A stretch of 64,000 nt of DNA from Treponema sp. (GTDB taxonomy: Bacteria; Spirochaetota; Spirochaetia; Treponematales; Breznakiellaceae), in contig WRLF01000002.1 of the NCBI GenBank assembly GCA_009777735.1, forward strand, positions 124,001-188,000, in the 5' to 3' direction. Of this stretch, positions 12,056-32,818 are shown one piece after another (within the stretch, counting starts at the first letter, position 1; each line of letters starts with the position of its first letter). Below the pieces are notes generated by a model. That model was given only the letters and a program-made list of their open reading frames with translations. It did no database searches and was not told where the DNA came from. The translations under genes were made by a program, and so were the position numbers.

Positions 12056-12092
12056 AGTATAGCACAGTTAGTCTGTCATGGGGTGGTAGAGC
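12056..12092 (-). promoter_or_regulatory. Operator-promoter A of the local regulon (WYL1-PTP1)
   Basis: The 23-bp operator is at 12070-12092. Read on the minus strand it ends in TGACAGACT, followed by 8 bases and the -10 TATACT (12056-12061). The ATG at 12049 is 6 bases further, where transcription should start. Confidence 0.75.
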
Positions 12093-12115
12093 AGTGTTTT
12101 TTCCTGCTGTTACTA

Positions 12116-13255
12116 TTACAATACCCCATCCCAATTTTCAGCAATTAATAACATTTCCTTTATTTTACATTCAAATGCATTAGTAATGTTATGAGTATTT
12201 GAATAAAGGTCTAAATAAAAATCTTTATTCCAATATCTATATTGATCCATATATTGATATAAAGGCCATGGTTTTGTTTTTCTGTAATTTAATCCTCGTA
12301 AATACTCATCTAATTCTTTAGACATGCCTGTACCACAACAACCATAATATAAATTTTGTAAATTGCTTCCCTCGAATTCAAAATCAATTTTAAAATTCTT
12401 CCATTCCTGTTTAAACAACGAAAAACCCCAATACGAACTGAAACAACCATCCAATGATAAGTCTATTTCAAGATTTAACCGTTTGGCCAAATCTGATATA
12501 AGTGGTACAAATTTATCTTTTAAAATTTGTAATTTCATATCATTAAAATTTTGAAAAACAACAAACGCCGCCGAAATATTTTCAACATCCTTTAAAATAA
12601 CATCTAAATATTCTTTTTGCATTTCCTTTTCCCTTTCCTGTCCGGTTAAATGTTTCACCAATATAATATATTGGGTTAAAGTTTCACGTAATAATGGATT
12701 GTTTATAGATTCTTTTTTACACAATTCAAGCCAATTTATAATATGTTCTTTATAAGATATTTTTTTATACTCCGGTTTTTCCTGACCAAAACTCCCTTCA
12801 CTTGGTTCGCTTCCAAATAAAGTTAAATACAATAGATGTGCTTTGGGATTATATTTATTATACCTTAGTAGTTGATTCCATTGATCATTTGCATATATTT
12901 TATTTTCAATAAATATTTGTTGATTTTTATTATTCGTTAATGTAATATCTATTCTACCGCCGGATTTATAATCTTCAGATACAAATCCAATAAATTTTTC
13001 TGTTTCAGTAATAACATTGTCAATTGAAAAATCAGATATTTCTATACACTCAAGAAATAGCCTTAAGAATTTATTGCCATTTTCATGCATTCCTCCGGGG
13101 TTTAATAATGTTGCAATAATTTTTGAATGACTTATCTCATCGGCAGATAAATTTAAAAGATTGAAAATATTAAAATTTTCTCCGGAAAATCTGTATATTT
13201 CCCGATATTTTTTATTAATGCTTGAAATTTGTGATAAAAATAACTCAAGACTCAT
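12116..13255 (-). CDS. PD-(D/E)XK nuclease superfamily protein (PDDEXK_4-like)
   Basis: The N-terminal motif EISHSKIIATLLNP (40-53) with HENGNKFL is characteristic of the PDDEXK_4 group. The catalytic core is Asp103 (GRIDITL), Glu117 and Lys119 (IFIENKI), followed by Gln at about 125. The C-terminal 150 residues form a separate domain with YYG and Trp/Tyr-rich motifs that recur in other proteins of this region. Such enzymes are usually predicted DNases near defence genes; the target is unknown. It is a single-gene unit behind operator B. The composition is distinctly A+T-rich compared with lon or nth, suggesting acquisition. Confidence 0.8.
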   Translation of the reverse strand: MSLELFLSQISSINKKYREIYRFSGENFNIFNLLNLSADEISHSKIIATLLNPGGMHENGNKFLRLFLECIEISDFSIDNVITETEKFIGFVSEDYKSGGRIDITLTNNKNQQIFIENKIYANDQWNQLLRYNKYNPKAHLLYLTLFGSEPSEGSFGQEKPEYKKISYKEHIINWLELCKKESINNPLLRETLTQYIILVKHLTGQEREKEMQKEYLDVILKDVENISAAFVVFQNFNDMKLQILKDKFVPLISDLAKRLNLEIDLSLDGCFSSYWGFSLFKQEWKNFKIDFEFEGSNLQNLYYGCCGTGMSKELDEYLRGLNYRKTKPWPLYQYMDQYRYWNKDFYLDLYSNTHNITNAFECKIKEMLLIAENWDGVL

Positions 13256-13301
13256 ATTTATCCCTTATAAAATTAAACTAATCCTGTAAATCGTTTTTTT
13301 G

Positions 13302-13324
13302 GGTCTGTCATGTAGTGGCAGATC
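13302..13324 (-). promoter_or_regulatory. Operator B of the local regulon (PD-(D/E)XK nuclease)
   Basis: 23-bp operator with proximal half TGACAGACC on the minus strand, 47 bases before the ATG at 13255. This is the only copy without an obvious TANNNT box 7-8 bases downstream; the following bases are CAAAAAAACGATTTA. Confidence 0.65.
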
Positions 13325-13372
13325 TATGGTAATATCAAATCCCCGCTTGTTACAGGAAAGCAGTGGCGATTA

Positions 13373-14503
13373 TCACTGCATAAAACTGTCCCCGCCTGAA
13401 ACATAGACGGTATTTTCGAATACTGCTATACCGGTTGTGGCAAAATAGTTCCATGCGTTATTAGGAAAACTCATGGTTTGGAATGCCCCATCCCGCCAAT
13501 AACAGGATATTCCATATTGGTATTCGTTATTAGCATAATTTCCTGCAATATAAACTTCATTGCCTGATACGACAATACCGTTGGTACTGCCTCCCAATGT
13601 TCCAGCCGGAAGGTTCAAAGTCTGTAATACTCCGTCTCTCCAATAACAGGGAGTTTTTCTGTTGCGAGCATCGGTGAATGATCCGGTAATATACACCGTA
13701 TTGCCTGAGATAGCTATACCACTGGTATTGCCGTCTGTTGCTCCGTTCGGAAGGTTGAGAGGCTGCAATTCCCCATCTCGCCAATAGCAGGGAATAGTTC
13801 TGTTTCTGCTATCTATGTAGGATCCGGCAACAATAACTGTATTGCCTGATACGGTTATACCAGTGGTACTACTTCTCTTTGCTCCGCTTGGAAGGTTCAG
13901 AGGCTGCATAACTCCATCTCTCCAGTAGCAGGCGAATGTGTCAGCATTCCAGTCATGGGTATTGGCGTACCAGCCGGCAACATAGACCATGTTGCCGGAT
14001 ACAGCAATACCTGTGGTACTACTCTGCCTTGCTTCATTCGGAACATTCAATGATTGTACCGTTCCATTTCTCCAATAGCAGGGAATGCTTTTCCCGAGAA
14101 TGCTGTAATTTCCTGTTATATAGACCGCATTGTCAAATACGGCAATGCCGCTTGAGTCGCCTCCAAGTGCTTCGTCCGGAAGGTTTAGGTTTTGCATCAC
14201 TCCGTTTCGCCAATAACAAGGCAAAGATACTAAACTCCCCCAGGGATCATCATCTGATTGCTCTTCAGCCAGATCAGCTATGTACGAACCCGAAATATAA
14301 ACATCACTGCCGGATACGGCTATACCGCTGGTACCAGTACTCACAAAAACGTCGTCGGAAGGGCTCAGGTTTTGCAGCGCTCCGTTCCGCCAATAGACGG
14401 GGTCTACACGAGCACATCCCGGACATGCATCAGCGGTAGTGTTGGAGTGCAATAAAAGCCCCGCGAGAGTAACGATAAAAACGACAGTAATTTTCTTTAA
14501 CAT
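13373..14503 (-). CDS. Secreted WRNG-repeat protein
   Basis: This 376-residue protein has a signal peptide (MLKKITVVFIVTLAGLLLH...) and about seven 45-48-residue repeats with PCYWRNG, LNLPNGA, TSGIAVSGN and VYITGSY. It is a paralogue of the lipoprotein at 2716-4311 but lacks that protein's N-terminal domain. The AGGAG ribosome site lies before ATG 14503. The regular repeats suggest a beta-propeller or similar solenoid in the periplasm or on the surface. It is richer in G+C than its neighbours and has no copy of the local operator, so it seems unrelated to the regulon around it. The function is unknown. Confidence 0.8.
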   Translation of the reverse strand: MLKKITVVFIVTLAGLLLHSNTTADACPGCARVDPVYWRNGALQNLSPSDDVFVSTGTSGIAVSGSDVYISGSYIADLAEEQSDDDPWGSLVSLPCYWRNGVMQNLNLPDEALGGDSSGIAVFDNAVYITGNYSILGKSIPCYWRNGTVQSLNVPNEARQSSTTGIAVSGNMVYVAGWYANTHDWNADTFACYWRDGVMQPLNLPSGAKRSSTTGITVSGNTVIVAGSYIDSRNRTIPCYWRDGELQPLNLPNGATDGNTSGIAISGNTVYITGSFTDARNRKTPCYWRDGVLQTLNLPAGTLGGSTNGIVVSGNEVYIAGNYANNEYQYGISCYWRDGAFQTMSFPNNAWNYFATTGIAVFENTVYVSGGDSFMQ

Positions 14504-14955: not shown

Positions 14956-15903
14956 TTACTTTATGTTAACTATTTTTAAGTAATTTTTTATTGTGTTTTC
15001 TAATATTTTTTCAGTATTATCATTATTATAAAAGTCATTTGGATTATATCTAAAATCAAGTAAGAAATCAGAATCCATTGTCCATGAATTACATTCACAA
15101 CATATATTATCTTTTTCAGAAAGTATTAATTCTTTCAATTTATTTAATATTTCTATATTTTTCGAACAAAAACTTATGCAAACATACATATCAGATTTAA
15201 ACAAAATATCTTCATATAATCCAATACTAATTACTTGATCTTTTAATATCCATTTATTTAAGAATGTCGTTTTATAGTTCCAAAAATATTCTCCTATATC
15301 ATAATTGTTATAGTAACGCCATTTATCAACAAAACCATATTTTTTAAATAAGTTAAAAAGTATAGAATAAACATTATTTTCCAGATAGATTGAACGTTCA
15401 TAGTTTATTGGAGGATTTGATGTTTTTATTGTTTTTGAAAAGTCATCAATAGATTTTATAAAACCAATATCTCCAGATAATATTTTACTTTCAATATTTC
15501 CATATTCCACAAGATCTATGTTTTGTAAATTACAAGAGATTTTTCCAAAATCATCGCTTGATCTAACGACAAGAACCATCTTTGGGGATACTATCTTATT
15601 ACCAAATAATCTAAATAAAGTACTATCCTCGTTATTTAATGAAGCAATGATTCTTGATCTATATTCTAATATTTGTCCAATATTGTCTCGTGTTAAATCA
15701 CCTCTTTTAAATTCAATAATAACCGGGAAACCAGTTACAGAGTCTTTTAATATTAGATCAATTCTTTTATTTCCCTCAATATAGAATTCCTTATCTTTAT
15801 TAAATTCTTTGAGTTCCGGTATATTTTGATAATTCAAATTTATCAACCACGGGTATTCCGAAATAAATTTCTGAATATCCCATTCATACTTAATAGTTTC
15901 CAT
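14956..15903 (-). CDS. PD-(D/E)XK nuclease-like protein (NucS/DUF91-like core)
   Basis: This 315-residue protein starts at ATG 15903, 6 bases after GGAGG. The core is RIDLIL (Asp49), VIIEFKRG (Glu64, Lys66) and a following Gln77, matching the Asp-Glu-x-Lys-Gln pattern of predicted endonucleases such as the NucS/DUF91-type fold. The C-terminal half is unrecognised. It is the third gene of the DUF4116-PTP2-nuclease run on the minus strand, 37 bases after PTP2, and probably shares operator C. It is A+T-rich. A DNA-cleaving role is inferred from the motif only. Confidence 0.72.
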   Translation of the reverse strand: METIKYEWDIQKFISEYPWLINLNYQNIPELKEFNKDKEFYIEGNKRIDLILKDSVTGFPVIIEFKRGDLTRDNIGQILEYRSRIIASLNNEDSTLFRLFGNKIVSPKMVLVVRSSDDFGKISCNLQNIDLVEYGNIESKILSGDIGFIKSIDDFSKTIKTSNPPINYERSIYLENNVYSILFNLFKKYGFVDKWRYYNNYDIGEYFWNYKTTFLNKWILKDQVISIGLYEDILFKSDMYVCISFCSKNIEILNKLKELILSEKDNICCECNSWTMDSDFLLDFRYNPNDFYNNDNTEKILENTIKNYLKIVNIK

Positions 15904-15940
15904 ACAACCCTCCAAGTTATTAATATTTTATCATATAAAT

Positions 15941-16645
15941 CTATTTAAAGTCAATGGTGTTTTGGTAACGTAATATCTCTTTCAACCTTTCAAGTTGTTC
16001 TTTTGACAACCCTATATTCTTTAAAAAATACTTTTCTATATTCGCTTGCAAATTTCTACGATCTTCAATTTTTCCATTAACTATTGCATTAATTTGACCA
16101 TAAATATTTCTTCCGGTAATATATTGTAATTCATCATTTTTTGCATCTGCAAAATCTTTTCCATAAGAAAGAAGATAATCATATATGATCTCGTCAATGC
16201 TTGCACCACATAACAATGCAATAATTGCCGCAACAAATCCGGTTCTGTCAACACCGGCGTTACAATGAATAAGATACGGCCCTTTGTGAATTAATAAAAA
16301 CTCAATTCCTTGTCTCAATTTATAATTAAATACTTCATATTCAAATGTATTAAGAAAATCGAACTCAAATTGAATATCAAGTCCTATAACATTATTTTCT
16401 CTGAGCAAAGTATTATACCATGGAACTAAATTGGCAATAATTTCCAGATCTGATGCATTCCCGGCTAAATTAATGACACAATTAATGCCTGCTTCAGAAA
16501 TAAGTTTATCGTAAATACGGTCTCTTTCCGGGTCAATTCTAAAAACTGGATAACTGCCTCGGTATATAATTCCTTTTTTCATGTTTCCCATACATATTTC
16601 TCTAAAGTTGGTGATTTCGTTGTCGTTGATGTATTTAATTTTCAT
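15941..16645 (-). CDS. Tyrosine phosphatase family protein (PTP2)
   Basis: The active-site loop HCNAGVDRTG (His127-Gly136, nucleophile Cys128, Arg134) and the N-terminal NFREICMGN motif make this a paralogue of PTP1 at 10359-11042. The start at ATG 16645 overlaps the stop of the DUF4116 gene by four bases (ATGA), so the two are translated together. The likely activity is dephosphorylation of phosphotyrosine or a small phospho-metabolite. Having two copies, each inside a separate unit of the same regulon, suggests that this activity matters to the system. Confidence 0.85.
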   Translation of the reverse strand: MKIKYINDNEITNFREICMGNMKKGIIYRGSYPVFRIDPERDRIYDKLISEAGINCVINLAGNASDLEIIANLVPWYNTLLRENNVIGLDIQFEFDFLNTFEYEVFNYKLRQGIEFLLIHKGPYLIHCNAGVDRTGFVAAIIALLCGASIDEIIYDYLLSYGKDFADAKNDELQYITGRNIYGQINAIVNGKIEDRRNLQANIEKYFLKNIGLSKEQLERLKEILRYQNTIDFK

Positions 16646-17772
16646 AATATGCCTCTTTTGGCCCTAAACCAAGGATCATCTTCATCGAGCTCTTCCAGAG
16701 CCCTTTTAACGTATTGGTCGATATAGAGTTGACGAAGTTCCGGTATTTGTTTTATTTTTTTGGGTGCAAAGCGAAGAGCCAGACAATTTTGCTTAACTGC
16801 TTCAAAGAAGATTTCCTGAGTATGAAATATTTTTGGTACATATAAAAGTGCAAAAACAGTTTGTTTTATTGCAGCCATACAGATATCCTCAGTTTTAAAA
16901 TATTCGGGCACATATTGCAGTGAATCTCCTTCACGCTGTACAGCCAAAAGACAAAGCTCTTTAGTCATGTACTCTTTCGGAACATGTTTAATCGCAGAGC
17001 TCTTATTTTGGACAGCGGTAATGCAAAGGTCTGTAGTCTTTAGTTTATCAGGAACAAATTCAAGGGCATAACCATTATCTTGTACAGCGGTAGAGCAAAG
17101 CTCTGGAGTTTTAAGTCTATTCGGAACAAATACAAGTGCATACCCATTTTTCTGAACTGTATCAAGACAAAGACTATAATTCCTTAATTCAATTGGTACA
17201 TATTCAAGTGCGAAAGCATCTTCCTGCACCGCAGCAAGACAAAGTTCAGGAGTTTTGTATTTTTTGGGGACATATTTGAGCGCCTCTCCTTCTTTTTTTA
17301 CAGCAGCAAAACACATTTCCAATGTCATAATTGCTTTAGGAACAAGTTCAAGCGCACCGCTGTTTTGTTGTATTGCAATAAGACATATTTCCTCGGTCAT
17401 GAGGTGTTTAGGTACATCCACAAGCGTACACCAATTTTTTTGTACAGAGGTTAAACAAAGTTCTGTTGTTAGTATTGATTTTGGGATGTAATTGATCACA
17501 TAACTGCCTCCTTGCATAGCAGCAAGGCAAATTCCTGTTGTTTTTAATGCTTTCGGCACATATTTTAGTGCAACACCGTCTTTTTGAACGGCGGCAAAGC
17601 ATAAATCTTCTGTTTTTAGTGCTTTTGGCACATATTTAAGCTCTTCTCCATTCTCTTGTACGGCATTAAGGCAGAGTTCCGGTTTTTTAAGCTCATCGGG
17701 AACATTAAAAAGCAAAAAATCTTTTTCTTTGTAAAGAATTCTGGAATATAATTCTGTATTTTTCTTTGCCAC
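16642..17772 (-). CDS. DUF4116 repeat protein
   Basis: Nearly the whole protein is made of about fourteen 24-residue repeats with the pattern KTPELCLAAVQ.NG.AL.YVP, typical of DUF4116 proteins, which form helical solenoids and probably mediate protein contacts. I place the start at GTG 17772 because GAGGAG lies 6 bases upstream; the longer frame to 17793 contains that ribosome site. It is the first gene of an operon with PTP2 and a nuclease behind operator C. The last 30 residues are charged (ALEELDEDDPWFRAK). No enzyme motif is visible, so a scaffold or sensor role is inferred. Confidence 0.8.
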   Translation of the reverse strand: MAKKNTELYSRILYKEKDFLLFNVPDELKKPELCLNAVQENGEELKYVPKALKTEDLCFAAVQKDGVALKYVPKALKTTGICLAAMQGGSYVINYIPKSILTTELCLTSVQKNWCTLVDVPKHLMTEEICLIAIQQNSGALELVPKAIMTLEMCFAAVKKEGEALKYVPKKYKTPELCLAAVQEDAFALEYVPIELRNYSLCLDTVQKNGYALVFVPNRLKTPELCSTAVQDNGYALEFVPDKLKTTDLCITAVQNKSSAIKHVPKEYMTKELCLLAVQREGDSLQYVPEYFKTEDICMAAIKQTVFALLYVPKIFHTQEIFFEAVKQNCLALRFAPKKIKQIPELRQLYIDQYVKRALEELDEDDPWFRAKRGIL

Positions 17773-17792: not shown

Positions 17793-17828
17793 AATTTATA
17801 CTATTAGTCTGTCATGGGATGATAGAGT
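17793..17828 (-). promoter_or_regulatory. Operator-promoter C of the local regulon (DUF4116-PTP2-nuclease)
   Basis: Operator at 17806-17828, proximal half TGACAGACT on the minus strand, then 7 bases and TAAATT (17793-17798) as -10. The GTG start is at 17772. Confidence 0.72.
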
Positions 17829-17897: not shown

Positions 17898-19661
17898 TTA
17901 ATTTAAATTCCAATTGTCAAAAATAAATTTTATTATCTTATCTCTTCGATCAATTATTTCATTTTCACCCCAAGTTTTTTTTGTTTCCAATACCTGTTTT
18001 ATTTTTTTATTTGAAAAGAAATCCTTATCAAATAAATCTATTTTATCTACAGGGTTATTATCTTTTTTAGCAGAATTGTCTCCCCAAACCATTAACCCAA
18101 GGTTTCCGATATTATTTAAGAAATCCCTTTTGAAATCATCCGAGTATTCAGTAAAATTTGGTGTCTGTGGCGTGATATGGTCAATTGTATTTTCTTTTCT
18201 TTTTGTTTCATATTTATTTTTGAAATCAATAGGGGTTAAAAGTCTTGCTCTTTCCACATCTCTTAAATAATTCTCATATTTCCATAGAACATATTTAATA
18301 TTACTAGAATAGTGATAACTATTTTTTAGAAAATAATTTTTACAACTTCCAGTAAAATCCCACCAGTCTTGAAAACCATGTTTTAAAATTATTTGAAGTG
18401 ATTCTTTCAATTTAACTATATCACCATTATAATTTTTAGCTATAGTTGGAAGACTATTTGTTCTATAATCAGCAGACCTGTATATCAGTCTAAATAGAAT
18501 GTTTTCGACAATCTTCATTACCTCAAATATTGTTTTTTCATCTTGCTTGTGAAAATGAAACAGCTTTATTAATAAAGGAATACTATTTTGAGTATCAAGC
18601 AACAACGAATCTGTAATTGAATTATTCTGCTCAGCAATTTTTTCTATTTTTTCAATTGTATGAAACGTTTCTTTCAATGTATAAACAAAACGCTTGATCC
18701 ATTCTTCTTTCTTTTCATTTTCTGTAATTACTTTAATTGCAGATTTAACATTGTCCAACGCATTTCCACTACCTGGTAAAAAAGCTACATTATGAAAACC
18801 TAATACTCTATCTTCGTCAAAAGATATTCTTTCTGATTGCCTGTATATATCGCAAAATTCCATCTCCATTTCTTTAATTACACTCACAGGATCATCAGAT
18901 ACTGCATATACTTTATGCATTAAAAATGCTTTTAATTTTTCTAGTGTTGTTAAATCCTTTCCTCGGTCATTTTGAAAAGCAAATATTTGTGTTGCCTGAA
19001 TTTTATCATCAACCTGGAATGTTGTAATAACCGCTTCTTCAACTATTTTTTTCCAAGTTAGAATTTCATGTATTTCTGCTTTTTCAAAAATATATTCAAA
19101 TGCTTTTTTTGCATTTGCAATTCTTTTCTGAGATTCAGTATCAAAGGCATTTCCAGCATCACAGTTTTGAAAAACTAAGTTTTTAAAAAACGGGTTGTCG
19201 TATTCAACTGTAGAAAATTTATAGTCTTTTCCCATTTGGATATAATCTTCACGAATACGCCATGTTTGAATTTCTTCACCATTCTCATCGAATAATTTTA
19301 TGTCAGAAAGGCTTGAATGCATTTTATCTTCTAAAGTATTCTCTCTACGTTTTTTTTCAAGATCCAATTTTCTTTTTTCAAGTTCCTGTATTAAACAACT
19401 AAAAAATATTACCACTGTTGTTAGTCTTTGCTGTCCATCAATGACCCAGTATTTATTTTTATCGTCCTTGTCTTTTTCAAAAAGGAAATGTCCTAAAAAA
19501 TATGGTTTTTTTGGATCTTGATCTTTTATATCAATGATAAATTGCTCAACTTGTTTTCTATCTTTATCACATTCCCATGAATAAGCTCTCTGATAAGCCG
19601 GAATTGAAAATTTTATGCCTTTTTCATGAAAAAGCTTTTCGACTGTCGTTTTTTCTTCCAT
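17898..19661 (-). CDS. DUF262/DUF1524 protein, GmrSD-like restriction enzyme
   Basis: This 587-residue protein has the DUF262 N-terminus with the ParB-like signature DGQQRLTT (75-82) preceded by IPAYQRAYSWE. It ends in a DUF1524 HNH-type domain (ENTIDHITPQ, then LNNIGNLGL, about 495-545). This fused layout is that of GmrSD-type (type IV) enzymes, in which the DUF262 part uses nucleotide energy and the HNH part cuts modified DNA; activity on modified phage DNA is inferred. GAGGT precedes ATG 19661. It is the last gene of the run started at operator D. It is strongly A+T-rich, unlike the housekeeping genes. Confidence 0.87.
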   Translation of the reverse strand: MEEKTTVEKLFHEKGIKFSIPAYQRAYSWECDKDRKQVEQFIIDIKDQDPKKPYFLGHFLFEKDKDDKNKYWVIDGQQRLTTVVIFFSCLIQELEKRKLDLEKKRRENTLEDKMHSSLSDIKLFDENGEEIQTWRIREDYIQMGKDYKFSTVEYDNPFFKNLVFQNCDAGNAFDTESQKRIANAKKAFEYIFEKAEIHEILTWKKIVEEAVITTFQVDDKIQATQIFAFQNDRGKDLTTLEKLKAFLMHKVYAVSDDPVSVIKEMEMEFCDIYRQSERISFDEDRVLGFHNVAFLPGSGNALDNVKSAIKVITENEKKEEWIKRFVYTLKETFHTIEKIEKIAEQNNSITDSLLLDTQNSIPLLIKLFHFHKQDEKTIFEVMKIVENILFRLIYRSADYRTNSLPTIAKNYNGDIVKLKESLQIILKHGFQDWWDFTGSCKNYFLKNSYHYSSNIKYVLWKYENYLRDVERARLLTPIDFKNKYETKRKENTIDHITPQTPNFTEYSDDFKRDFLNNIGNLGLMVWGDNSAKKDNNPVDKIDLFDKDFFSNKKIKQVLETKKTWGENEIIDRRDKIIKFIFDNWNLN

Positions 19662-19704: not shown

Positions 19705-20352
19705 CTACAATTTTGCTCTGTTTTTGTCATTTTTTATACCGGTTCTCCTTCTCTTATAATAATTGATAATTAATTCCATTGATTCATCAAAATTTATTTC
19801 CGTGTCTCCGTTCTGATTCATAATAATTAAAATATCCGGTTTACCTATTTCAAGGACGTATTGAAAAGTATCAAATATTCTACTGCACTGTTTGATTTGT
19901 TTCCAATCTTCATATTGTGCTCCTCCGGCTTGTGCTGATGTTTCAAAACGTTCCATTGAGTTAATATTTCCCCAGATAAAAGACTCCGGCAAATCTGTAA
20001 TATTTAAATTCTTTTGATTTTTCTTTTTATAAATATTCGTTATAAATCGGATTATATAATCCCAATATTTTGTTTGTTGATTATTTACCATTTCCAAATA
20101 CTTGTTAAGATCTGTTACATAATCATACGCAAGTTCTGTTGAGATGGTATATCTTTCCATAAAATCCTGAAAAGAAAGCCATCCATTTGTTTCAAGTCCA
20201 AAAAACGCCATTTTTACCGGAGATTTTTCATAGTACTTCCCAACCCTAGGAATATTTATTGCAGGCATTCCTGTCGTATTAAATGCTCCGAGATTTTCAA
20301 TAAATTTGTCTATTAATGAACAATATTTTATTTTGAATTGATTATATATCAT
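19705..20352 (-). CDS. Unknown protein in DUF262 operon
   Basis: This 215-residue protein is not recognised with confidence. Motifs such as MAFFGLETNGW near residue 48, SFIWGNINS near 125 and PDILIIMNQNGD near 175 are arranged like the phosphate- and base-recognition loops of the uracil-DNA-glycosylase fold, but catalytic residues cannot be assigned. It starts at ATG 20352, 8 bases after the upstream gene, with an AGGTAG-like ribosome site, and is followed 43 bases later by the DUF262 enzyme. A nucleic-acid role next to the nuclease is a guess. Confidence 0.6.
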   Translation of the reverse strand: MIYNQFKIKYCSLIDKFIENLGAFNTTGMPAINIPRVGKYYEKSPVKMAFFGLETNGWLSFQDFMERYTISTELAYDYVTDLNKYLEMVNNQQTKYWDYIIRFITNIYKKKNQKNLNITDLPESFIWGNINSMERFETSAQAGGAQYEDWKQIKQCSRIFDTFQYVLEIGKPDILIIMNQNGDTEINFDESMELIINYYKRRRTGIKNDKNRAKL

Positions 20353-20360: not shown

Positions 20361-21044
20361 CTACCTTTCATTATTAATATCAAAAAACAATAATCGTTGT
20401 TCAAGATAATCAATTTTCTCAGAAAAATCTACTAAAAATTTAAGGCATCCATAATGTACATTATGAATATTCAATGCTTCAATAAACATATTTAATTGAA
20501 AAAACATATGTTCATTTATACTACTTTCTCCAGTCGCGACGCTATGCCAATTACTTTTTTTATCATATTCAATTATTTTGTTTTCAAGCATATTTACATC
20601 ATCTATTAAATAATCATTGTAATTTATATTGACAATATTATCATTGTTTTCTTCATTTTTATTACACGTTATCATTATAATATTTTTTTTGTCTTTATTT
20701 TCATATTCAATATTATTTGGTGTAATAAATATATATTTATTAATTTTATTATTTTTTTTGTTTCCCCATCCAGCTATTATATCGTTAGCAACATCTATAA
20801 TTTTTAGATTTTGACTCCATATCATGTAAAGTGGGAATTCTAAATATTTATATTGTAATGTATCCTCGTTTATGATTTTTTCAAATATACTTGAAAATGG
20901 ATAATTTTGCTTTAATATTCTGATAATAAATATTTGGGGGATATGTAAATCATTTGCCACGATGTTTCCAAATATTTTTTTTATATCAATATTATATGGC
21001 GTATTTATTCTATCATAGTAGATAGACCAAGCATCATAATTCAT
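20361..21044 (-). CDS. Unknown protein, first gene of the DUF262 operon
   Basis: This 227-residue, Asn/Ile-rich protein has no motif I recognise. GGAGG lies 6 bases before ATG 21044, and the leader runs back to the operator D promoter with its -10 at 21079-21084. It is very A+T-rich. Cotranscription with the following two genes (gaps 8 and 43 bases) suggests a shared task with the GmrSD-like enzyme. Confidence 0.62.
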   Translation of the reverse strand: MNYDAWSIYYDRINTPYNIDIKKIFGNIVANDLHIPQIFIIRILKQNYPFSSIFEKIINEDTLQYKYLEFPLYMIWSQNLKIIDVANDIIAGWGNKKNNKINKYIFITPNNIEYENKDKKNIIMITCNKNEENNDNIVNINYNDYLIDDVNMLENKIIEYDKKSNWHSVATGESSINEHMFFQLNMFIEALNIHNVHYGCLKFLVDFSEKIDYLEQRLLFFDINNER

Positions 21045-21078
21045 TATTTCCTCCAGCGTTTTCTGTTCTCATGCTCAA

Positions 21079-21115
21079 AGTATAGCATTGTTGGTCTATC
21101 AGGAGTTGATAGAGC
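21079..21115 (-). promoter_or_regulatory. Operator-promoter D of the local regulon (unknown-unknown-DUF262)
   Basis: Operator at 21093-21115, proximal half TGATAGACC on the minus strand, 8 bases, then TATACT (21079-21084). The gap sequence AACAATGC closely matches AACTGTGC at operator A. Confidence 0.75.
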
Positions 21116-23618: not shown

Positions 23619-23682
23619 AACATATATTAAATTAAAAAAATTTTCATGTCAAGTACTCGCATCCGTATTTCCCCCAACATAC

Positions 23683-23700: not shown

Positions 23701-23709
23701 ATATGATAA

Positions 23710-23964
23710 TTAACCAGGTATTGGCGAGTAACAATTGCTAGGAGCAGATTGATAAGCAGCACTAGGGTGCCGACCGCCGCCACACTTATTACTTGGGCCT
23801 TCAAAAAGGCGGCAACTACCGCATACATTGCTGTCAAAAAGACTTGCAGGGCCTTTAAAACAATTGATCGGAGCAGATTGATAAGCAGCACCAGGGTGTC
23901 GACCGCCTGCACACTTTTGACTAGGGCCTACAAATAATTGACACTGTCCGCATGTATTAGCCAT
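23710..23964 (-). CDS. Small duplicated Cys-rich protein
   Basis: This 84-residue protein consists of two similar units with CGxCxLFxGPSxKC, GGRHP and AAYQSAPxNC. Each unit keeps four Cys (C-x2-C-x9-C-x16-C) and one His, so each probably binds one metal ion, like small zinc ribbons. AAAGGAGG 6 bases before ATG 23964 supports a real gene. The two units are also very similar as DNA, showing a recent duplication. A 25-codon frame upstream (24004-24081) carries a third partial copy of the motif. No homologous family comes to mind; the function is unknown. Confidence 0.7.
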   Translation of the reverse strand: MANTCGQCQLFVGPSQKCAGGRHPGAAYQSAPINCFKGPASLFDSNVCGSCRLFEGPSNKCGGGRHPSAAYQSAPSNCYSPIPG

Positions 23965-24003: not shown

Positions 24004-24081
24004 CTATTCATTGCCCAACGGACAATATGACCGGAAACTCCGGCATTTTCCACAATCAATTTTATCCGCCTGATCTATCAT
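24004..24081 (-). CDS. Tiny Cys-rich peptide or partial copy of the downstream motif
   Basis: A 25-codon frame reads CGKCRSFRSYC near its centre, matching the CGxCxLF motif of the protein encoded 40 bases downstream. It has no clear ribosome site. It may be a degenerate extra unit of the same gene or a short leader peptide. Confidence 0.3.
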   Translation of the reverse strand: MIDQADKIDCGKCRSFRSYCPLGNE

Positions 24082-24227
24082 ACAATGATCGTTCACTCAT
24101 GAATTCCAGTTTAAATGTCTGCAAATACAGCCGAATGTTTGTATTATATTTCATTTGCATACATTATGTCAAGGCAAATTCTTCAATAATCATTCAAATG
24201 CACACTTTTATGGCATAAAATGACTGA

Positions 24228-24566
24228 ATGAATGGGGAGTTTTTCTGGAAAATGGTCAAAAATGAGGTGGATAGGCAAAATACCAGTTTTGAGTGGCTAT
24301 ACCAGAAAACAAATATATCTAAAGGAACATTTTCTTCATGGAAAAACAGAAATATCATTCCCAGAGCGGGCGAGGCGTTCCGTATCGCGCAAGTACTTAA
24401 TGTATCGGTTGAATATCTGTTGACCGGTGCCGACCGGGACAATTCCCCGTCAAACCTTGCTGCCCAGGAAATAACCGGAATGATTCCATTTTTTGACGAC
24501 AATGATTTGCAAACACTTCTCGCCACAGTACGGTCAATGGCTGCACGGTATAATCGCAAAAAATAG
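24228..24566 (+). CDS. XRE-family helix-turn-helix regulator
   Basis: This 112-residue protein has a Cro/CI-type helix-turn-helix (about 18-68): FEWLYQKTNISKGTFSSWKNR with IPRAGEAFRIAQVLNVSVEYLLTG in the following helices. The C-terminal 45 residues are short and helical (FFDDNDLQTLLATVRSM). It stands alone on the plus strand, upstream of the GxxExxY repeat cassette. No good ribosome site precedes ATG 24228; an inner ATG at 24252 would cut the first helix. The operator is unknown; it may control the divergent Cys-rich gene. Confidence 0.82.
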   Translation: MNGEFFWKMVKNEVDRQNTSFEWLYQKTNISKGTFSSWKNRNIIPRAGEAFRIAQVLNVSVEYLLTGADRDNSPSNLAAQEITGMIPFFDDNDLQTLLATVRSMAARYNRKK

Positions 24567-25310: not shown

Positions 25311-26318
25311 CTAACTCGCTGTTTTTTGCATTTCTGCAATATTATAACGCCAAGTTGTTACCAGCAATTCCGGCTCCAGCGGGCGGGCAGTGCAGCCGCG
25401 GGACAATACCCACTCAATTACTTTCAGAAATTGGGTGCTGGTAAAAGTAAGCATAATTCCGTCATCGGCTTTACTGATTTTTTGATCATCAGCCCATTTG
25501 CGATCTTTTACCCACGCAATGGAATAATCGTAAAAAGCAATTTTAAACTTGTATCTTTTCTGTCCGGCAAAAATGCCAAAATAGCTTCCCGCGTTAATGG
25601 CACGGTAATCAAAATCTTTGGGCAGGGAAAAATGATCTGTGGTTACAACGATATTCTTCATGCGGCAGAGTGAAAAAATACGTGTTTCCTTTCGTTCTTC
25701 GGCATATCCGTACAAATACCAAATGCCGGTATCAAACAACAATTGATACGGTTTAACACGCCGGCTCTGGTACTTTTCATCATAGCTTCCCATATACTCA
25801 AAAACAAGAATACGGTTTTCCTTGAGGGCTGTTGTGACAGGCTCCCACACATCATTTACAACGGAAGCTGAAGGAACCTGCGGTACCACAATGCGATTTT
25901 CAAACCATGACGAATTGCCTTCGGCTGCCAGCGGTGCTGTGATGCAGTTCAAAAGGTTGTTAGCCGCCTCGTAAACAGGCGTGTTGCGATACAGCGAAAG
26001 AATATTTTTTGCCATGCCCAGAGCCAGCAGTTCATCAGCTCCGGCAAAACCCATTGGAATACGGTAATTTTTTTCAGAGTAATAATACCCACGGTTGAGG
26101 GCATCGTATTCAATGGGGGCGTACAGTCTGTCCCTCATGAAGGCAATATCCCGGCTTATGGTCGGAACGCTCACCTCTCCCCATTTATCAAGCAGATATT
26201 CCGCCAAATACCTTGAGTTTGGATATATTCCCGAGGCTATCTGCTGGTCGATGTAAAACAACCTTGTTAGTGCTGATTTTGGCGGCGATGGTACGGTTGA
26301 TTTTTTATCTTTTTTCAT
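25311..26318 (-). CDS. WYL-domain transcriptional regulator (WYL2)
   Basis: A close paralogue of WYL1 with the same winged-helix N-terminus (LFYIDQQIASGIYPN, SVPTISRDIAFMRD in about residues 20-65), WYL core (IWYLYGYAEERKETRIF) and C-terminal domain. I prefer ATG 26318, which aligns with the WYL1 start, over TTG 26327, which would overlap the stop of the Sel1 gene as TTGA. It is the second gene behind operator E, so both WYL proteins lie in units carrying the shared operator. They may form homodimers or a heterodimer like PafB-PafC; this is inference. The 3' end touches the right arm of the GxxExxY cassette. Confidence 0.9.
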   Translation of the reverse strand: MKKDKKSTVPSPPKSALTRLFYIDQQIASGIYPNSRYLAEYLLDKWGEVSVPTISRDIAFMRDRLYAPIEYDALNRGYYYSEKNYRIPMGFAGADELLALGMAKNILSLYRNTPVYEAANNLLNCITAPLAAEGNSSWFENRIVVPQVPSASVVNDVWEPVTTALKENRILVFEYMGSYDEKYQSRRVKPYQLLFDTGIWYLYGYAEERKETRIFSLCRMKNIVVTTDHFSLPKDFDYRAINAGSYFGIFAGQKRYKFKIAFYDYSIAWVKDRKWADDQKISKADDGIMLTFTSTQFLKVIEWVLSRGCTARPLEPELLVTTWRYNIAEMQKTAS

Positions 26319-26323
26319 GTTTT

Positions 26324-27685
26324 TCAATTAATTTTCTTTTGGTAATGGTTTTGGTGTATTACTTTGACATCTGTCCATATTTGGTCTATATTTAAAATAT
26401 CATGAAAACTCCAATGGTTTTCCAGCAAGACATGAATTGCGTAACATATATAATGGTCATTAAATACTCCATCCAGATATTGGTTATTCCAGTTAATTGA
26501 CTTATCCATAAAAACAGGGATTTCCTGTTCAATCCATTCAAACCTGGAATGGCTGATATCAAATTCAATTGGATGATATTTAGGTTCTGATAAAACCAAA
26601 GCAATACAATCTTCCTCATAATCATTTTTATCAAAAATATATGGTTGTAATGTAATTTCTATTTCATAGTCAGAAAGAAATGGATCATTGTTCTGTATTC
26701 TCATTTCTAGATTTTTTGCAATAGTCAGCGCTTCATTATATGATTTAATAAAAATACTCATGAGTTTATCATTTATCTCCAGGAATTTCTTTTTCTTGCT
26801 TTTTGTCCAGGAAAAATTTTTGTTTAGTTTTTCATATCTTTTCAATAAAGCTTTATTAAATTCATATCTGAAAGGCCATTCAGATTTTTTCTTGTAGAAA
26901 TATATTGCTAATTCTTCCAATTCACTAACGGAAAAGTCTTCTATTACCTTTGGCTTCTTAAAATTAATCAATGTATCATTATCAATTTTCAAAATTTCGT
27001 TTTCTTGATCATTATACTGCAAAACATAGTTAGTGTTATTTTTTCGATTAATGTGAAAATAATAAATCCCATCGTTGTTCTTATTCCAGTTGGATCCTGT
27101 TTGTTCATACTTTTTATACCAATATTCGGCTTTTTCAGGATCTTGTATCACGCCAATTCCATTGGCATAGCAAAATGCTAAATTATGATATGCAATATTA
27201 TTTGCATCTTGTGCTGCCAGATTAAAATAATATACCGCATCTTCACGATTTTTTGGTAATCCATCTCCTTTATAATAACACAATCCAAGATTAACAAGTG
27301 CATTTCTATGATGCTGCGCTGCAGATCTATGATACCAATACACTGCTTTTTCAAAATTTTGGGGTACACCTTCTCCTTGATGATAAATACAACCAAGATA
27401 GAATTGCGCTACATAATTACCTGCTTCAGCTGCCTTCGTATACCACAACAGCGCTTTTTCTCCGTCTGTTTGAAAACCATCTCCATTATTATCATAACAA
27501 TGTCCAAGCCAATATTGTGCCCCGGTATTGCCTTGATCTGCAGCTTCAGTGAGCCAGTGAACAGCTTTTTCAAAATCTTTTTGTATGACTCTTCCAAAAT
27601 AGTAATAACATCCAAGATTATATTGCGCTTCGGCATCACCCTGTTCTGCTTGTTCCTGCAATTTAATAATGTCAATTTCCTGCAT
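26324..27685 (-). CDS. Sel1-repeat protein with unknown C-terminal domain
   Basis: This 453-residue protein begins with five or six Sel1-like repeats of 36 residues (for example AQYWLGHCY, EKALLWYTKAAEAGN and AQFYLGCIYHQGEGV), covering about residues 10-200. The second half is an acidic, aromatic-rich domain I do not recognise. Sel1 repeats mediate protein-protein contacts in signalling. AAGGAG lies before ATG 27685. It is cotranscribed with WYL2 (2-base gap or 4-base overlap depending on the start), so it could be a partner or anti-regulator of the WYL protein. Confidence 0.82.
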   Translation of the reverse strand: MQEIDIIKLQEQAEQGDAEAQYNLGCYYYFGRVIQKDFEKAVHWLTEAADQGNTGAQYWLGHCYDNNGDGFQTDGEKALLWYTKAAEAGNYVAQFYLGCIYHQGEGVPQNFEKAVYWYHRSAAQHHRNALVNLGLCYYKGDGLPKNREDAVYYFNLAAQDANNIAYHNLAFCYANGIGVIQDPEKAEYWYKKYEQTGSNWNKNNDGIYYFHINRKNNTNYVLQYNDQENEILKIDNDTLINFKKPKVIEDFSVSELEELAIYFYKKKSEWPFRYEFNKALLKRYEKLNKNFSWTKSKKKKFLEINDKLMSIFIKSYNEALTIAKNLEMRIQNNDPFLSDYEIEITLQPYIFDKNDYEEDCIALVLSEPKYHPIEFDISHSRFEWIEQEIPVFMDKSINWNNQYLDGVFNDHYICYAIHVLLENHWSFHDILNIDQIWTDVKVIHQNHYQKKIN

Positions 27686-27702: not shown

Positions 27703-27738
27703 AGAATAACCAACCGGTCTATCAAGAGGTGATAGACC
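27703..27738 (-). promoter_or_regulatory. Operator-promoter E of the local regulon (Sel1-WYL2)
   Basis: The most symmetric copy: GGTCTATCA and TGATAGACC are perfect inverted halves (27716-27738). Seven bases further on the minus strand is TATTCT (27703-27708), then AAGGAG and ATG 27685. Confidence 0.78.
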
Positions 27739-27778: not shown

Positions 27779-28843
27779 TTAATCTTTAAGGAATACACCT
27801 TTATGAAAATCACCTCGTTCAAATTTAATGGCATTCCTGTTTATCGCATCCATTATTTTCTGCCTGGCTTGACGAGTTTCACTCAATGTATATTTCTCGT
27901 ATTTATGATTATTTTCTATTAAATCATTAATCTCATCAGCGGTTTTAATGGATAAACATTGCATAATAATCTCCCTGGAACGCTTGTCAATTCCCTTGAA
28001 AGCTTTAAGAAGTGTATAGGTTCCGAAATTTTTTAACGCTTCTTTAATAATCAATATATTGCAATGCTCATTGTGGATTTTACCGTTGTGTTCAAGTATT
28101 TGCTCAAAACGAATAAGTAACGGTTTTGTTATTTCATACTCAACCATTGGTTTAATATGTCTGGCGTAGATAAATCTTCCCTTCTCTGTTTCAAGCTCAT
28201 TTAAATAATTGCATAAACCATCTGCAAGATGATATGTTTCATAAATCGAGATGGATACACTGTCGGCAATATTACCTGATCCGCGAAATACCATGACAAT
28301 ATTATTTCTTTCTTCTTCAGCAAACGGCGGGAAGCACTTTCTTAGTTTAATTTTAGTTCTTTTACCAAATGCATCAATTGCTTTATCAAATGTTTCAGTA
28401 GATAAATACTTATACGTGTCCAAAATAAGCTGTCTTGCATCTTCAATATCTGACTCAGCATATGGTTCCACATATTCAATATCTTCTTTAAGCATTCCTG
28501 AAGCTCGTTTGGACATATTTTTAAAAAAATGATCTTTTATTTCTTTTTTTGCATCTTTCAAAGCTAATACCAATATATCTGAGTCAAGTTCACGCAATAA
28601 TTTTTGCAGGTTTCTATTGCTTATGGTTAAAATATCATCAAAAGTAAAGGGCACATACTTCTCAAGAGAGTATTCTCTATTTAGGTATATTTCTCTGGCA
28701 TTAAACCTCTCTCCGCATTCAAGAGAAATACTGTTTATGAAACGGCAAAACTGCTTCGCTTCCTGATAACTCCCGCAGAGATAAACCATTACATGGGTTA
28801 CTTTCTCGCTGTTTTCGCGGGTTATAAGAACAATGTTTTTCAA
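27779..28843 (-). CDS. Protein with one clear and one degenerate FliG C-terminal-type domain
   Basis: I place the start at TTG 28843, with GGAGG 6-7 bases upstream; the open frame to 28927 would translate operator F and is rejected. Residues 68-148 (FTFDDILTI, LLRELDSDILVLALKDA, NMSKRASGMLKEDIEYV, then DIEDARQLI) strongly resemble the FliG C-terminal torque-generating domain. Residues about 268-336 (LLKAFKGID, SETRQARQKIMDAI) look like a second, degenerate copy. The N-terminal 60 residues and the middle are unrecognised. True FliG sits in the flagellar motor switch; here the gene is in an accessory island under operator F, so a motor-interacting or repurposed role is possible. Confidence 0.72.
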   Translation of the reverse strand: MKNIVLITRENSEKVTHVMVYLCGSYQEAKQFCRFINSISLECGERFNAREIYLNREYSLEKYVPFTFDDILTISNRNLQKLLRELDSDILVLALKDAKKEIKDHFFKNMSKRASGMLKEDIEYVEPYAESDIEDARQLILDTYKYLSTETFDKAIDAFGKRTKIKLRKCFPPFAEEERNNIVMVFRGSGNIADSVSISIYETYHLADGLCNYLNELETEKGRFIYARHIKPMVEYEITKPLLIRFEQILEHNGKIHNEHCNILIIKEALKNFGTYTLLKAFKGIDKRSREIIMQCLSIKTADEINDLIENNHKYEKYTLSETRQARQKIMDAINRNAIKFERGDFHKGVFLKD

Positions 28844-28864: not shown

Positions 28865-28900
28865 AATATAGTATATTGGTCTGTCATGAGGTGATAGACC
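28865..28900 (-). promoter_or_regulatory. Operator-promoter F of the local regulon (FliG-like protein)
   Basis: Operator 28878-28900 with distal half GGTCTATCA and proximal half TGACAGACC on the minus strand, 7 bases, then TATATT (28865-28870). It overlaps the last codons of the upstream gene, which ends at 28884. Confidence 0.77.
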
Positions 28901-29795
28901 GATAAAAATTCCACCAATCGCCCACAACCTCCATTTTTTTTAAATCCAAATATGCATACCCCGAATGTGGATATGTATTATTCTCGATCTCAATTTTAAA
29001 CAAGCTATTTTCTGTATTCACACCTTTCATTTCAGAAATTTCTTTCTTTTCGACATCCACCGGATTAACCCATGCATAATAATTAACCTTTTTATATTCG
29101 CTGTAATTATATTTTGGCCCTTTATAGAAAAATCCTTTGGGGAAATGCCTTTCCAAATTTATTCCTTTATAACCAGTTTCGTGTTCCAGCATTATAAAGT
29201 TTGGATCAAAGACTCTAAGAAGTTTATGATATTTTTTTATTACATTATCCAGAGATGTCTGATCTAAACCGGCAATCAATTCTGGTTCACTGCAGATATT
29301 TGGATAGATCATGAGCCGCTTATGAGTATAGGTGAGCCGGAAAACCCTTTTATCAACTGAAACCCAAAATACCGGGCCTCCAGTCAGTACATTGCCCATC
29401 CATGTAACAAAACAATCGTTGGAATAAATTATCTGAAAACATTTATAAAGTTGTTTATACCCCCATTTGTTGACAATACTGAAATTAGCCTGGCAGCAGC
29501 CGAAATTACATACTTCTCCGGTATAATTCAATACAGGTATAGATGTAAATTTCCATGTGGATGCTCGTTCAATACCCAGAAAATCGTTATTATGCAATTG
29601 TTTCAATAAATCATTAGCATCTTTTGCCGGTATATTACAATATATTTTAGCTTCATTTAATTCACTTTCCAAATCAGATTTATTCTTTCTTTTAATATAG
29701 TTAATTGCACCTTCATTGAGAAAAAATGATTTATACATCATCATTTTTTCTTTTTTATTCATATGTATATTTAACTTTGCAATATCTTTCTGCAT
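28884..29795 (-). CDS. Unknown 303-residue protein
   Basis: No family is recognised. The protein has a charged N-terminus, a Cys pair (VCNFGCCQANF) near residue 95 and many aromatic residues in the second half (YNYSEYKKVNYYAW, GDWWNFY). No signal peptide or membrane helix is visible, so it is probably cytoplasmic. GAGGAG precedes ATG 29795. It is a single-gene unit behind operator G and its stop lies inside operator F, which serves the next gene. Membership in the regulon is the only clue to function. Confidence 0.65.
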   Translation of the reverse strand: MQKDIAKLNIHMNKKEKMMMYKSFFLNEGAINYIKRKNKSDLESELNEAKIYCNIPAKDANDLLKQLHNNDFLGIERASTWKFTSIPVLNYTGEVCNFGCCQANFSIVNKWGYKQLYKCFQIIYSNDCFVTWMGNVLTGGPVFWVSVDKRVFRLTYTHKRLMIYPNICSEPELIAGLDQTSLDNVIKKYHKLLRVFDPNFIMLEHETGYKGINLERHFPKGFFYKGPKYNYSEYKKVNYYAWVNPVDVEKKEISEMKGVNTENSLFKIEIENNTYPHSGYAYLDLKKMEVVGDWWNFYRSITS

Positions 29796-29836: not shown

Positions 29837-29872
29837 ATTCTATCAATCTGGTCTATCACAGGATGATATGGC
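29837..29872 (-). promoter_or_regulatory. Operator-promoter G of the local regulon (unknown 303-residue protein)
   Basis: Operator 29850-29872. The proximal half TGATAGACC is intact, the distal half GCCATATCA is degenerate. Seven bases downstream on the minus strand is TAGAAT (29837-29842). Confidence 0.7.
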
Positions 29873-30429: not shown

Positions 30430-30489
30430 TAGGCACTATACCACATTTACATAGGTTATACCTAGAGATCAACAAAGATATCGTGAAGA

Positions 30490-31053
30490 TCACCCCAACT
30501 TCCCCATCTGCATCCCCGCAGCTTTGAGCAATCCTTTAATGCTGGTTTTCTCCCCAAATATTTCCGCAGCCATTTGCACGAGTTTACCGCATGTCTGTGC
30601 GTCTTCAAGTGCGTTGTGAGCCTTATATACAATGCCAAAATTTTTTGCCAGTGCGGTAAGGGCATGGGATTTTAGATCAGGCCATGTTTTACGGGCAAGA
30701 TTGCAGGTGCAAAAATACGATAATTTTGGAAGAGGGATTTCATAATATTCCAGCGTAGCCCGCAGCACTCCCATGTCAAATGCTGCGTTATGCGCCGCAA
30801 GAGGCAGCCCTTCCAAAAAATCAGATATTCCATTGTCCCACAGATATTCAAAATCATACGCATCTTTTACGTCATCCACCGTAAGGCCGTGAATGTCGGT
30901 AAAATCAGGGCGTATGTACAGCTTTGGCGGACGGATGAGCGAGTAAAAAGTATCAACAGGTTCGTAGTCACAGAATTTGACCAGGCCAATGGAAATCGCG
31001 CTGTTAGGCTTATACGTGGCGGTTTCAAAATCAATGGCAATAAATTTATTCAT
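30490..31053 (-). CDS. DEDDh 3'-5' exonuclease (DnaQ-like)
   Basis: The DEDDh motifs are present in order: IDFETA (Asp8, Glu10), HNAAFD and HNALEDA with the final His and Asp. This is the fold of DnaQ/epsilon-type exonucleases, which degrade DNA or RNA ends. I chose ATG 31053, inside the last codons of the AAA ATPase (8-base overlap), because the longer frame adds only residues that overlap the ATPase. It is the second gene behind operator H; the close coupling suggests that the ATPase and exonuclease act together. Confidence 0.88.
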   Translation of the reverse strand: MNKFIAIDFETATYKPNSAISIGLVKFCDYEPVDTFYSLIRPPKLYIRPDFTDIHGLTVDDVKDAYDFEYLWDNGISDFLEGLPLAAHNAAFDMGVLRATLEYYEIPLPKLSYFCTCNLARKTWPDLKSHALTALAKNFGIVYKAHNALEDAQTCGKLVQMAAEIFGEKTSIKGLLKAAGMQMGKLG

Positions 31054-32776
31054 GGGCAAATCCAATCTTTTTACTGTTTGTGGGCTCATTCAATGTTTCA
31101 GCCTTGCTGTAGGCAACAAGGGTATCCAGAGAAAGCCTTGTCACCTCTGGGTGGCGCCCCCCATTGATTATATCATCAACTTCGGTTTTGCGGGCAATGT
31201 TTTCAATCTGACCGCCGGAAAGTTCAAAACGGGAAGAAAGTTCTTTGGCTGACTCTTCGGCAAGCCCTGGCAGCAGGGAGTGCCATATACCCATACGGTT
31301 TTCCGGACCGGGTTTATCAAACGTTACTTTGTACAGAAAACGCCTCTCAAAAGCTTTATCCATGTTCTGCGTTAAATTGGTTGTGGCAATGAGTATGCCG
31401 GAAAGGTTTTCCATTTCCTGTAAAATAATGTTTTGGATGGTATTTTCGGTCTGATCTACCGAGCGGCTGGAAGAAGAAAATTCTTTCCGTTTGCCAATAA
31501 CCGCATCGGCCTCGTTAAAAAGCAAAATTGGCGCAATTTTTGAATTTTCAACCGCTGTCCGGTAGATTTCAAATACTTCTTTTATTCTTTTTTCGCTTTC
31601 ACCAAACCACATGCTTTTTGTTTCAGAAATATCAACCATCATGATATTCCGTTTTGTTTCACGGGCAATCTGGTAAGCAGTCTCGGTTTTCCCGGTTCCC
31701 GGCGGGCCGGAAAACAAACACGCAAACCCCTTCCTCATACCTTTTTTGTCCAGCCTTTTTTGGATTTTGCAGAAATTTTTATCTTTGAGCAGTGATATGA
31801 GTTTTTTGATTTCTCCGGTTTCTCTTTCATTGTAGAACATTTTTTTTGGTTTAATTGAATTAAACAGTATAAGGTTTTTTTGATAGTTTCTTTTTCCCTT
31901 AATGTTCATTTCTGCCAAAAGTTCTTTTTTTGCCTTGTCCGATAATTTCCATGAATCGGAATTGACAAAACCGTCATCATTCGTATGTACTACAAATTTT
32001 CCCTCCATGAGTGAATGGGAGCCATCAGATAAACCTTGTTTAACTTCAGAAAATAAAAACTTCCTGTCATATAAAAATTCAATATCATGGGCGCCGATAT
32101 TATCATCATTGTTGTTTCCGAATAAATGGCAAAAACAGAGCAGTAACACAAGAGTGCCGTTTCTGAATTTATAGCTCATTATTTTTTTGCAAAACTCAAG
32201 ATGCATATTTTGTGCTATAAGATCCAGGAGTTCCGCTTTCATGGAATTATATGTCAGCTCATTATTGCTTCTCTCGTCAAAAATCCGCTCAAGAACAATA
32301 AATAAAGCAGAAATGGTAAGGTTTTCATTGTTTTCCGGAACAAACCCATTGTTTTTCCGCAGCGACTCAGCAACATTGCGGGGGATTCTGTATGAAATAC
32401 CGTCATCATCCCTGCGGCAGCGGATGAGCCGCTTTTTTTCCAACTCTTCACAGTCGTTCATATATTTGATAATCCTGACTTTGCTGCATTTTATAGACTC
32501 GGCTATTTCGCTGATATGGATACACCTTTCATCGCTTTTTTCCATAAAATGCGAAAACAACACTGCCTGAACAGGGCTGATATCAAGTTTCGTGCATATA
32601 TAATTGAGATAGCATTTTCCTCTGACCAGGCTCTTGGTTATTCCGTATTTTTTGGAAATTTCAATGATTTTTTCGATATGATCCAGGAGGCACATATCCT
32701 GCCTGGAGACGGAATCCGCGGATTCACACCGAAAAGAAAATAACTTTGCCTTTAAGGCAGAAATTGCTTGTTTCAT
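31046..32776 (-). CDS. AAA ATPase with N-terminal winged-helix region
   Basis: The 576-residue protein has a helical and winged-helix N-terminal part (about 75-135, ISEIAESIKCSKVRIIKYMN). A C-terminal AAA module carries Walker A GPPGTGKT (357-364), Walker B ILLFNEAD (417-424, with Asn where Asp is usual) and an arginine-finger region AFERRF (475-480). Such ATPases remodel protein or DNA complexes. The -10 of operator H ends 6 bases before ATG 32776, so the mRNA is probably leaderless. It overlaps the exonuclease gene by 8 bases. A combined ATPase-nuclease defence or repair role is inferred. Confidence 0.87.
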   Translation of the reverse strand: MKQAISALKAKLFSFRCESADSVSRQDMCLLDHIEKIIEISKKYGITKSLVRGKCYLNYICTKLDISPVQAVLFSHFMEKSDERCIHISEIAESIKCSKVRIIKYMNDCEELEKKRLIRCRRDDDGISYRIPRNVAESLRKNNGFVPENNENLTISALFIVLERIFDERSNNELTYNSMKAELLDLIAQNMHLEFCKKIMSYKFRNGTLVLLLCFCHLFGNNNDDNIGAHDIEFLYDRKFLFSEVKQGLSDGSHSLMEGKFVVHTNDDGFVNSDSWKLSDKAKKELLAEMNIKGKRNYQKNLILFNSIKPKKMFYNERETGEIKKLISLLKDKNFCKIQKRLDKKGMRKGFACLFSGPPGTGKTETAYQIARETKRNIMMVDISETKSMWFGESEKRIKEVFEIYRTAVENSKIAPILLFNEADAVIGKRKEFSSSSRSVDQTENTIQNIILQEMENLSGILIATTNLTQNMDKAFERRFLYKVTFDKPGPENRMGIWHSLLPGLAEESAKELSSRFELSGGQIENIARKTEVDDIINGGRHPEVTRLSLDTLVAYSKAETLNEPTNSKKIGFAHE

Positions 32777-32782
32777 ACTTAA

Positions 32783-32818
32783 AATATAGCATGTTGGTCT
32801 TTCATAGGATGACAGATC
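32783..32818 (-). promoter_or_regulatory. Operator-promoter H of the local regulon (AAA ATPase-exonuclease)
   Basis: Operator 32796-32818, proximal half TGAAAGACC on the minus strand, 7 bases (AACATGC, like the gap at operator D minus one base), then TATATT (32783-32788). The ATG follows after 6 bases. Confidence 0.74.

Follow-up and report, generated by a model that had tools for sequence, protein, structure and literature searches.

The Caulobacter regulator DriD, as presented in the available part of a preprint (PMC12340889), recognizes a pseudo-palindrome that lies over the -35 region of several target promoters, at a fixed distance from the -10 and together with a poor -35. SiwR and PafBC of mycobacteria are characterized in excerpts of two further papers (PMC10693628, PMC11804915) as WYL activators that work from the -26/-35 region upstream of the -10, and for BrxR an excerpt of PMC9122601 reports two island locations with inverted repeats. 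Here an accessory island of Treponema sp. is described in which a 23-bp palindrome recurs in front of eight units, two of which encode WYL regulators; it lies in a window (the whole stretch of DNA analysed) of 64,000 nt from contig WRLF01000002.1 of assembly GCA_009777735.1 (2.69 Mb, 83% complete). To our knowledge, little is known about how defence islands are switched on, and the WYL controllers of defence genes known to us (BrxR, CapW) act as repressors from one or two sites. According to the reading favoured here, with a probability of about 0.7, DriD-type WYL activators run the island promoters, probably for defence.

Operator sites and promoter layout

The initial annotation had placed eight 23-mers at 12070, 13302, 17806, 21093, 27716, 28878, 29850 and 32796, each 5' of a minus-strand unit; every one is present there and so positioned. 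On the gene strand their consensus is GNTCTATCAYCYCATGAYAGACC, with the arms TCTATCA-N5-TGATAGA, and the gene-proximal half is better conserved. A weight matrix built from the eight sites gives them scores of 25.4-32.8, and the next best place in the 64 kb, at 24072, reaches 13.5. A degenerate pattern with up to 3 mismatches yields 30 matches vs 12.3 expected from shuffles (highest shuffle 19).

A -10 follows 3' at 8 bp from the minus-strand sites 12070..12092 (TATACT), where the WYL2 ATG stands 6 bp past the -10 and is apparently leaderless, and 21093..21115 (TATACT; unit of two unknown proteins and GmrSD). The distance is 7 bp at 27716..27738 (TATTCT; Sel1-WYL1 unit), whose arms are perfectly palindromic, at 28878..28900 (TATATT; FliG-like gene), at 29850..29872 (TAGAAT; unknown gene 28884-29795) and at 32796..32818 (TATATT; AAA+-DEDDh unit), where the AAA+ ATG, also 6 bp past the -10, is apparently leaderless too. 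Site 28878 extends into the 3' end of the gene before it (28884-29795). No clear -10 was seen at 13302..13324 (PDDEXK_4 gene), and 17806..17828 (DUF4116-phosphatase-SduA_C unit) is ambiguous, with TATAAA at 5 or TAAATT at 7 bp 3'; both are minus-strand sites. A weak ninth candidate, 24072..24094 (-; scores 13.5, 16.5), has TAAAAT 7 bp 3' and precedes 23649-23912 and 22563-23618. A possible leaderless ORF (open reading frame) of 12 codons, 21034-21072 (-), stands after the -10 of 21093 and overlaps the start of the next gene, and translational coupling is conceivable.

Across 67 non-redundant loci, 173 matches score at least 14 (both strands), vs 6, 2 and 5 in shuffles. An earlier spacing count had chosen the strand by the -10; repeated without seeds and by score alone, the count puts the -10 at 7 or 8 bp for 70 of 99 unique sites. 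A -35 hexamer (at least 4 matches) is present at 2 of 100 sites, with about 12 expected at random places. The 23-mer is part of the promoter, nearly constant in its distance from the -10, and it stands in place of the -35, as would be expected for a DriD-like activator. The existence of the regulon and of this promoter logic is regarded as virtually certain.

The near-fixed distance points to activation, which is judged probable. A BrxR-like repressor, by which a WYL dimer on the -35 region would shut the promoters until infection or a ligand releases it, could also cover the -35, and this counts against activation. Such a repressor would not depend on a constant spacing to the -10, and its promoters would be expected to retain a usable -35; the operator covers the -35 position and no -35 is seen. 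In the excerpt of PMC9122601 the BrxR site lies downstream of the predicted -10, and DriD is the better match by fold; repression is considered improbable.

At 44 of 100 sites with a -10 at 6-9 bp an ATG lies 6 or 7 bp past the -10, at about +1. When an ORF of at least 60 codons at a distance of 5-8 bp is required, 38 of the 100 sites are leaderless: 25 of 32 with WYL as first gene, 6 of 7 with AAA and 7 of 61 with others (p 4.9e-12). The two leaderless cases of the window are WYL2 and AAA+. A Shine-Dalgarno-led start further down is found at 42 of the 62 non-leaderless sites, and in several WYL proteins the +1 ATG coincides with the conserved N-terminus of the family. Apparently, most WYL and AAA+ genes begin translation at about +1 and most other genes do not.

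A search of the whole assembly with the pattern, 2 mismatches being allowed at most, gives 33 matches (both strands counted) vs 8 for the reversed control. The best places outside the island are the pair C3:152279/152344 between divergent leucine-rich-repeat genes, C1:256 near a contig end, and C9:71624 with a neighbour at about C9:71680; among ten other genomic places sampled, a correctly spaced -10, judged by eye, was seen at C9 only. Of the proposal of a local regulon without copies in housekeeping regions, a shared regulatory site that defines an island regulon is strongly supported; the regulon is not purely local, given the C3 pair and C9, and the promoter pattern, found in 28 of 145 family genomes, is not unique to the island.

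A WYL match was obtained in 39 of the 145 family genomes. The scan of named genomes delivered 42 loci from 69 matched stretches, of which 39 carry spirochaete titles (Treponema, Spirochaetaceae, Spirochaetales, Spirochaetes, Spirochaetia) and the others the titles Syntrophomonadaceae, Fibrimonas and, as a weak match, Anaeromyxobacter. The WYL-operator units under titles of other phyla, L102 (Syntrophomonadaceae) and L114 (Fibrimonas), may reflect horizontal transfer or misbinning. Judged from isolate names, many of the relatives may come from termite-gut samples. Clustered palindromes without the -10 layout occur at L105:5281, 5519 and 5778 and at L094:9001 and 10328.

WYL regulators as candidate operator binders

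The island encodes WYL2 at 11039..12049 (-; Pfam WYL, E 3.9e-16) and WYL1 at 25311..26327 (-), which is 55-56% identical to WYL2. The architecture consists of helix-turn-helix (HTH), WYL and WCX parts, as in a DriD-like activator, and the predicted model of WYL1 fits DriD. With regard to a PafBC-type heterodimer, whose two WYL proteins come from adjacent or fused genes, the two island WYL genes are 13 kb apart. Four WYL genes are present in the host genome. The C15 copy comes with two GCTCCATCA-N5-TGATTAACC sites, one of them on its own gene, and the C1 copy has two sites ACTATRTCR-N5-TGACACAGT downstream; WYL paralogues with different operators in one genome presumably run separate regulons. 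At L035:5326-8845, a unit behind C1-type sites encodes a protein kinase together with a protein that has DNA-ligase-domain matches.

Across 36 WYL-operator pairs (36 of 38 rows kept; L115, which lacks the helix region, and the second L036 ORF were dropped), the recognition-helix residue that precedes RD tracks operator positions 19-20. S goes with AG in 23 of 25 cases, Y always with TA (5 of 5) and I always with AG (2 of 2); N is found with AC and AT, and H with TA and AA. Among the alignment columns, position 58 ranks first for operator position 20 and second for position 19. On a tree built without the helix columns the residue and operator classes are mostly clades, and for this reason the link is no more than suggestive. 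A helix-operator code as proven was rejected: there are 6 changes of residue and 6 of dinucleotide on the tree, but only one or two of the pairs are independent.

The operator is very probably bound by the WYL proteins, which are its best candidates. Very unlikely is binding of the 23-mers by another regulator, for example the Phage_CI-like HTH protein at 24228-24566 (+), with the WYL genes as mere clients. Among the 67 loci, four share a cluster of CI-like HTH genes, a lower bound since ORF calling missed the copy in the window; such genes are present in the window and near a WYL locus of G143 (L211), and the gene of L077 (4938-5270) adjoins a palindrome. They occur, however, in few loci, whereas the sites track WYL genes; the palindrome closest to the CI-like gene of the window, 24072, is the weakest, and it is the WYL helix residue that covaries with the operator. 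CI-like HTH genes recur in the WYL loci L077, L094, L105, L064 and L211.

Gene content and carriage of the island

The gene content listed for the controlled units in the initial annotation is right in outline. All of the following genes are on the minus strand. WYL2 is followed by a tyrosine-phosphatase-family protein (10359..11084; Y_phosphatase3, E 9.9e-16). The PD-(D/E)XK (PDDEXK_4) protein (12116..13255; PADLOC candidate PDC-S26, E 1.2e-101) forms a unit of its own. The third unit comprises the DUF4116 repeat protein (16642..17772; Pfam, probable GTG start), a second tyrosine-phosphatase-family protein (15941..16645; Pfam) and an SduA_C (Shedu)-like protein (14956..15915; E 2.7e-7, weak in PADLOC). 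Two unknown proteins, one without significant Pfam match (20361..21044) and one without Pfam match (19705..20352), precede the GmrSD/DUF262 enzyme (17898..19661; Pfam; PADLOC GmrSD-type Orf5/HEC-06). The Sel1-repeat protein (26324..27685), with a C-terminal domain at about residues 246-450, precedes WYL1. The FliG-like protein (27779..28843; two FliG_C matches, start probably TTG 28843) is distinct from the best FliG match (C11), and the unknown protein 28884..29795 stands alone. In the last unit the AAA+ ATPase (31046..32776), with an IetA/IteA-like ATPase domain, an IetA-like PADLOC match and a structure model of pLDDT 81.2 and pTM 0.47, is joined by a DEDDh exonuclease (30490..31089; matches include DEDDh in PADLOC). 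The PADLOC matches thus place the WYL genes with defence genes, several of them belonging to candidate systems only. The island also contains, at 13373-14503, a repeat-like protein that has no operator to itself and, judged by eye, may carry a signal peptide.

Within 6 kb of 64 WYL ORFs (>180 residues), neighbours include AAA+ (16), DEDDh (9), a DUF4116/leucine-rich-repeat cluster (8), phosphatase (5) and PDDEXK_4 (5); the single-linkage protein clusters of DUF4116 and Sel1 are mixed with leucine-rich-repeat proteins. G073 has 15 sites scoring at least 13 within about 45 kb and relatives of seven window families (WYL, AAA+, DEDDh, PDDEXK_4, phosphatase, DUF4116, FliG-like), the FliG-like protein with 57% identity to that of the window over 350 residues. 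The C-terminal domain of the Sel1 protein recurs in a leucine-rich-repeat protein of G073, in one C3 protein and in leucine-rich-repeat proteins of other WYL-type units. In the window (26324-27685, -) Sel1 repeats are attached to it, whereas leucine-rich repeats take their place in several relatives (among L037:5409-7256, L208:8847-10985, L038:8614-10668 and L036:1034-1846) and on C3; repeat modules therefore seem to have been exchanged on a shared domain.

Extra FlhA-like (FHIPEP) copies occur in WYL-type units at L085:3397-4215, L084:940-1755, L038:3042-3821 and L041:11724-13757. They stand behind operator-type sites in L084, L038 (weak site, 12.7) and L041, and the copy in L085 is the third gene of an AAA+-DEDDh unit. 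Three consist of the membrane part only (259-272 residues); the L041 copy is full length but diverged. All four genomes hold a better flhA match elsewhere; as genomes were picked for a seen copy, 4 of 5 is not a frequency. No FHIPEP match was found in the assembly of the window itself. A role of these copies as membrane effector or motility decoy is possible.

Many units have one to three genes with a single-orientation repeat between them, and contents vary among genomes; even so, that the palindromes are integron-like recombination or cassette boundaries is scarcely credible, with sites 5' of genes at near-fixed spacing to the -10 and often to the ATG.

A tblastn search for window proteins from 10359-33498 in 11 stretches of 7 genus relatives (6 contain nth, with 2-12 kb on its island side) found none of those tested but did find core flank genes, and therefore the operator-bearing block is accessory in this host. 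Carriage on a tRNA-borne island was rejected, the window having no tRNA, and so was phage carriage, because none of the 33 viral-contig stretches that matched a pattern encodes a WYL relative.

Proposed mechanism and described WYL systems

In the favoured reading a dimer of a DriD-type WYL activator would bind the 23-bp palindrome, which would substitute for the -35, and would hold RNA polymerase at promoters whose -10, 7-8 bp further on, would be the sole good core element. The trigger would probably be single-stranded DNA or another nucleic-acid signal that arises during phage attack or DNA damage; single-stranded DNA or damage in this role is little short of an even chance. Through its own site the regulator would amplify itself, together with the AAA+/DEDDh pair, and switch on nuclease, phosphatase, repeat and flagellar-part-like proteins. 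Defence as the purpose is rather likely.

Several observations weigh against this reading. The pattern is present in 9 family genomes without a WYL match and absent from 20 WYL genomes, although it covers one operator class only, and 12 close WYL genes with adequate upstream DNA have no site scoring at least 14. The matrix seeds came from WYL loci, mostly with a -10, and the counts of matrix score, spacing and WYL-gene sites are partly circular; the pattern search in family genomes, the seedless site count and the set of WYL ORFs are less so. The base composition of the operator itself contributes to the exclusion of a -35, and the helix-operator link comes from one or two independent tree pairs. 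In a comparison by sequence alone, PafBC scores higher than DriD. The DriD consensus ATACGAC-N7-GTCGTAT is not matched by the island's arms, and DriD, in the available part of the preprint (PMC12340889), does not activate its own gene, whereas most close WYL homologues here carry a site. That a WYL damage response makes up for a lack of LexA was rejected, for the LexA DNA-binding domain is present in 10 of 10 genomes searched and such a response would fill no gap.

If the favoured reading is true, the island provides a natural, readable set of activators and promoters in which operator, -10 and often start codon are near-fixed, so that regulons become predictable from sequence; DUF4116, FliG-like and FlhA-membrane-like proteins would come under one control and their roles would be testable. 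A wider scheme is more doubtful: mutually insulated WYL activator-promoter pairs (residue S/Y/N/H vs AG, TA, AC/AT, TA/AA), with up to four close paralogues per genome and their own regulons; a leaderless sensor and AAA+ that would be translatable under attack; and a payload with swapped repeat modules and diverged, often truncated FliG-like and FlhA-membrane parts that might jam motility or leak ions as defence.

Like BrxR and the repressor CapW, the WYL proteins of the island adjoin defence genes. Among the matches listed from the open-licence PMC literature, no publication describing this regulon appeared. BrxR differs as a repressor with a site downstream of the promoter and, in the excerpt of PMC9122601, two R-BOXes vs the eight island sites. 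In the excerpts of PMC10693628 and PMC11804915, SiwR has one 19-bp palindrome beside its own gene, and PafBC, a heterodimer, uses a -26 motif. DriD, as far as the partial preprint goes, shares with the island the modelled WYL fold, a site that covers the -35 and keeps a near-fixed distance from the -10, a poor -35 and multiple promoters; unlike DriD, the island has regulator mRNAs that are apparently leaderless, and its targets form an accessory island.
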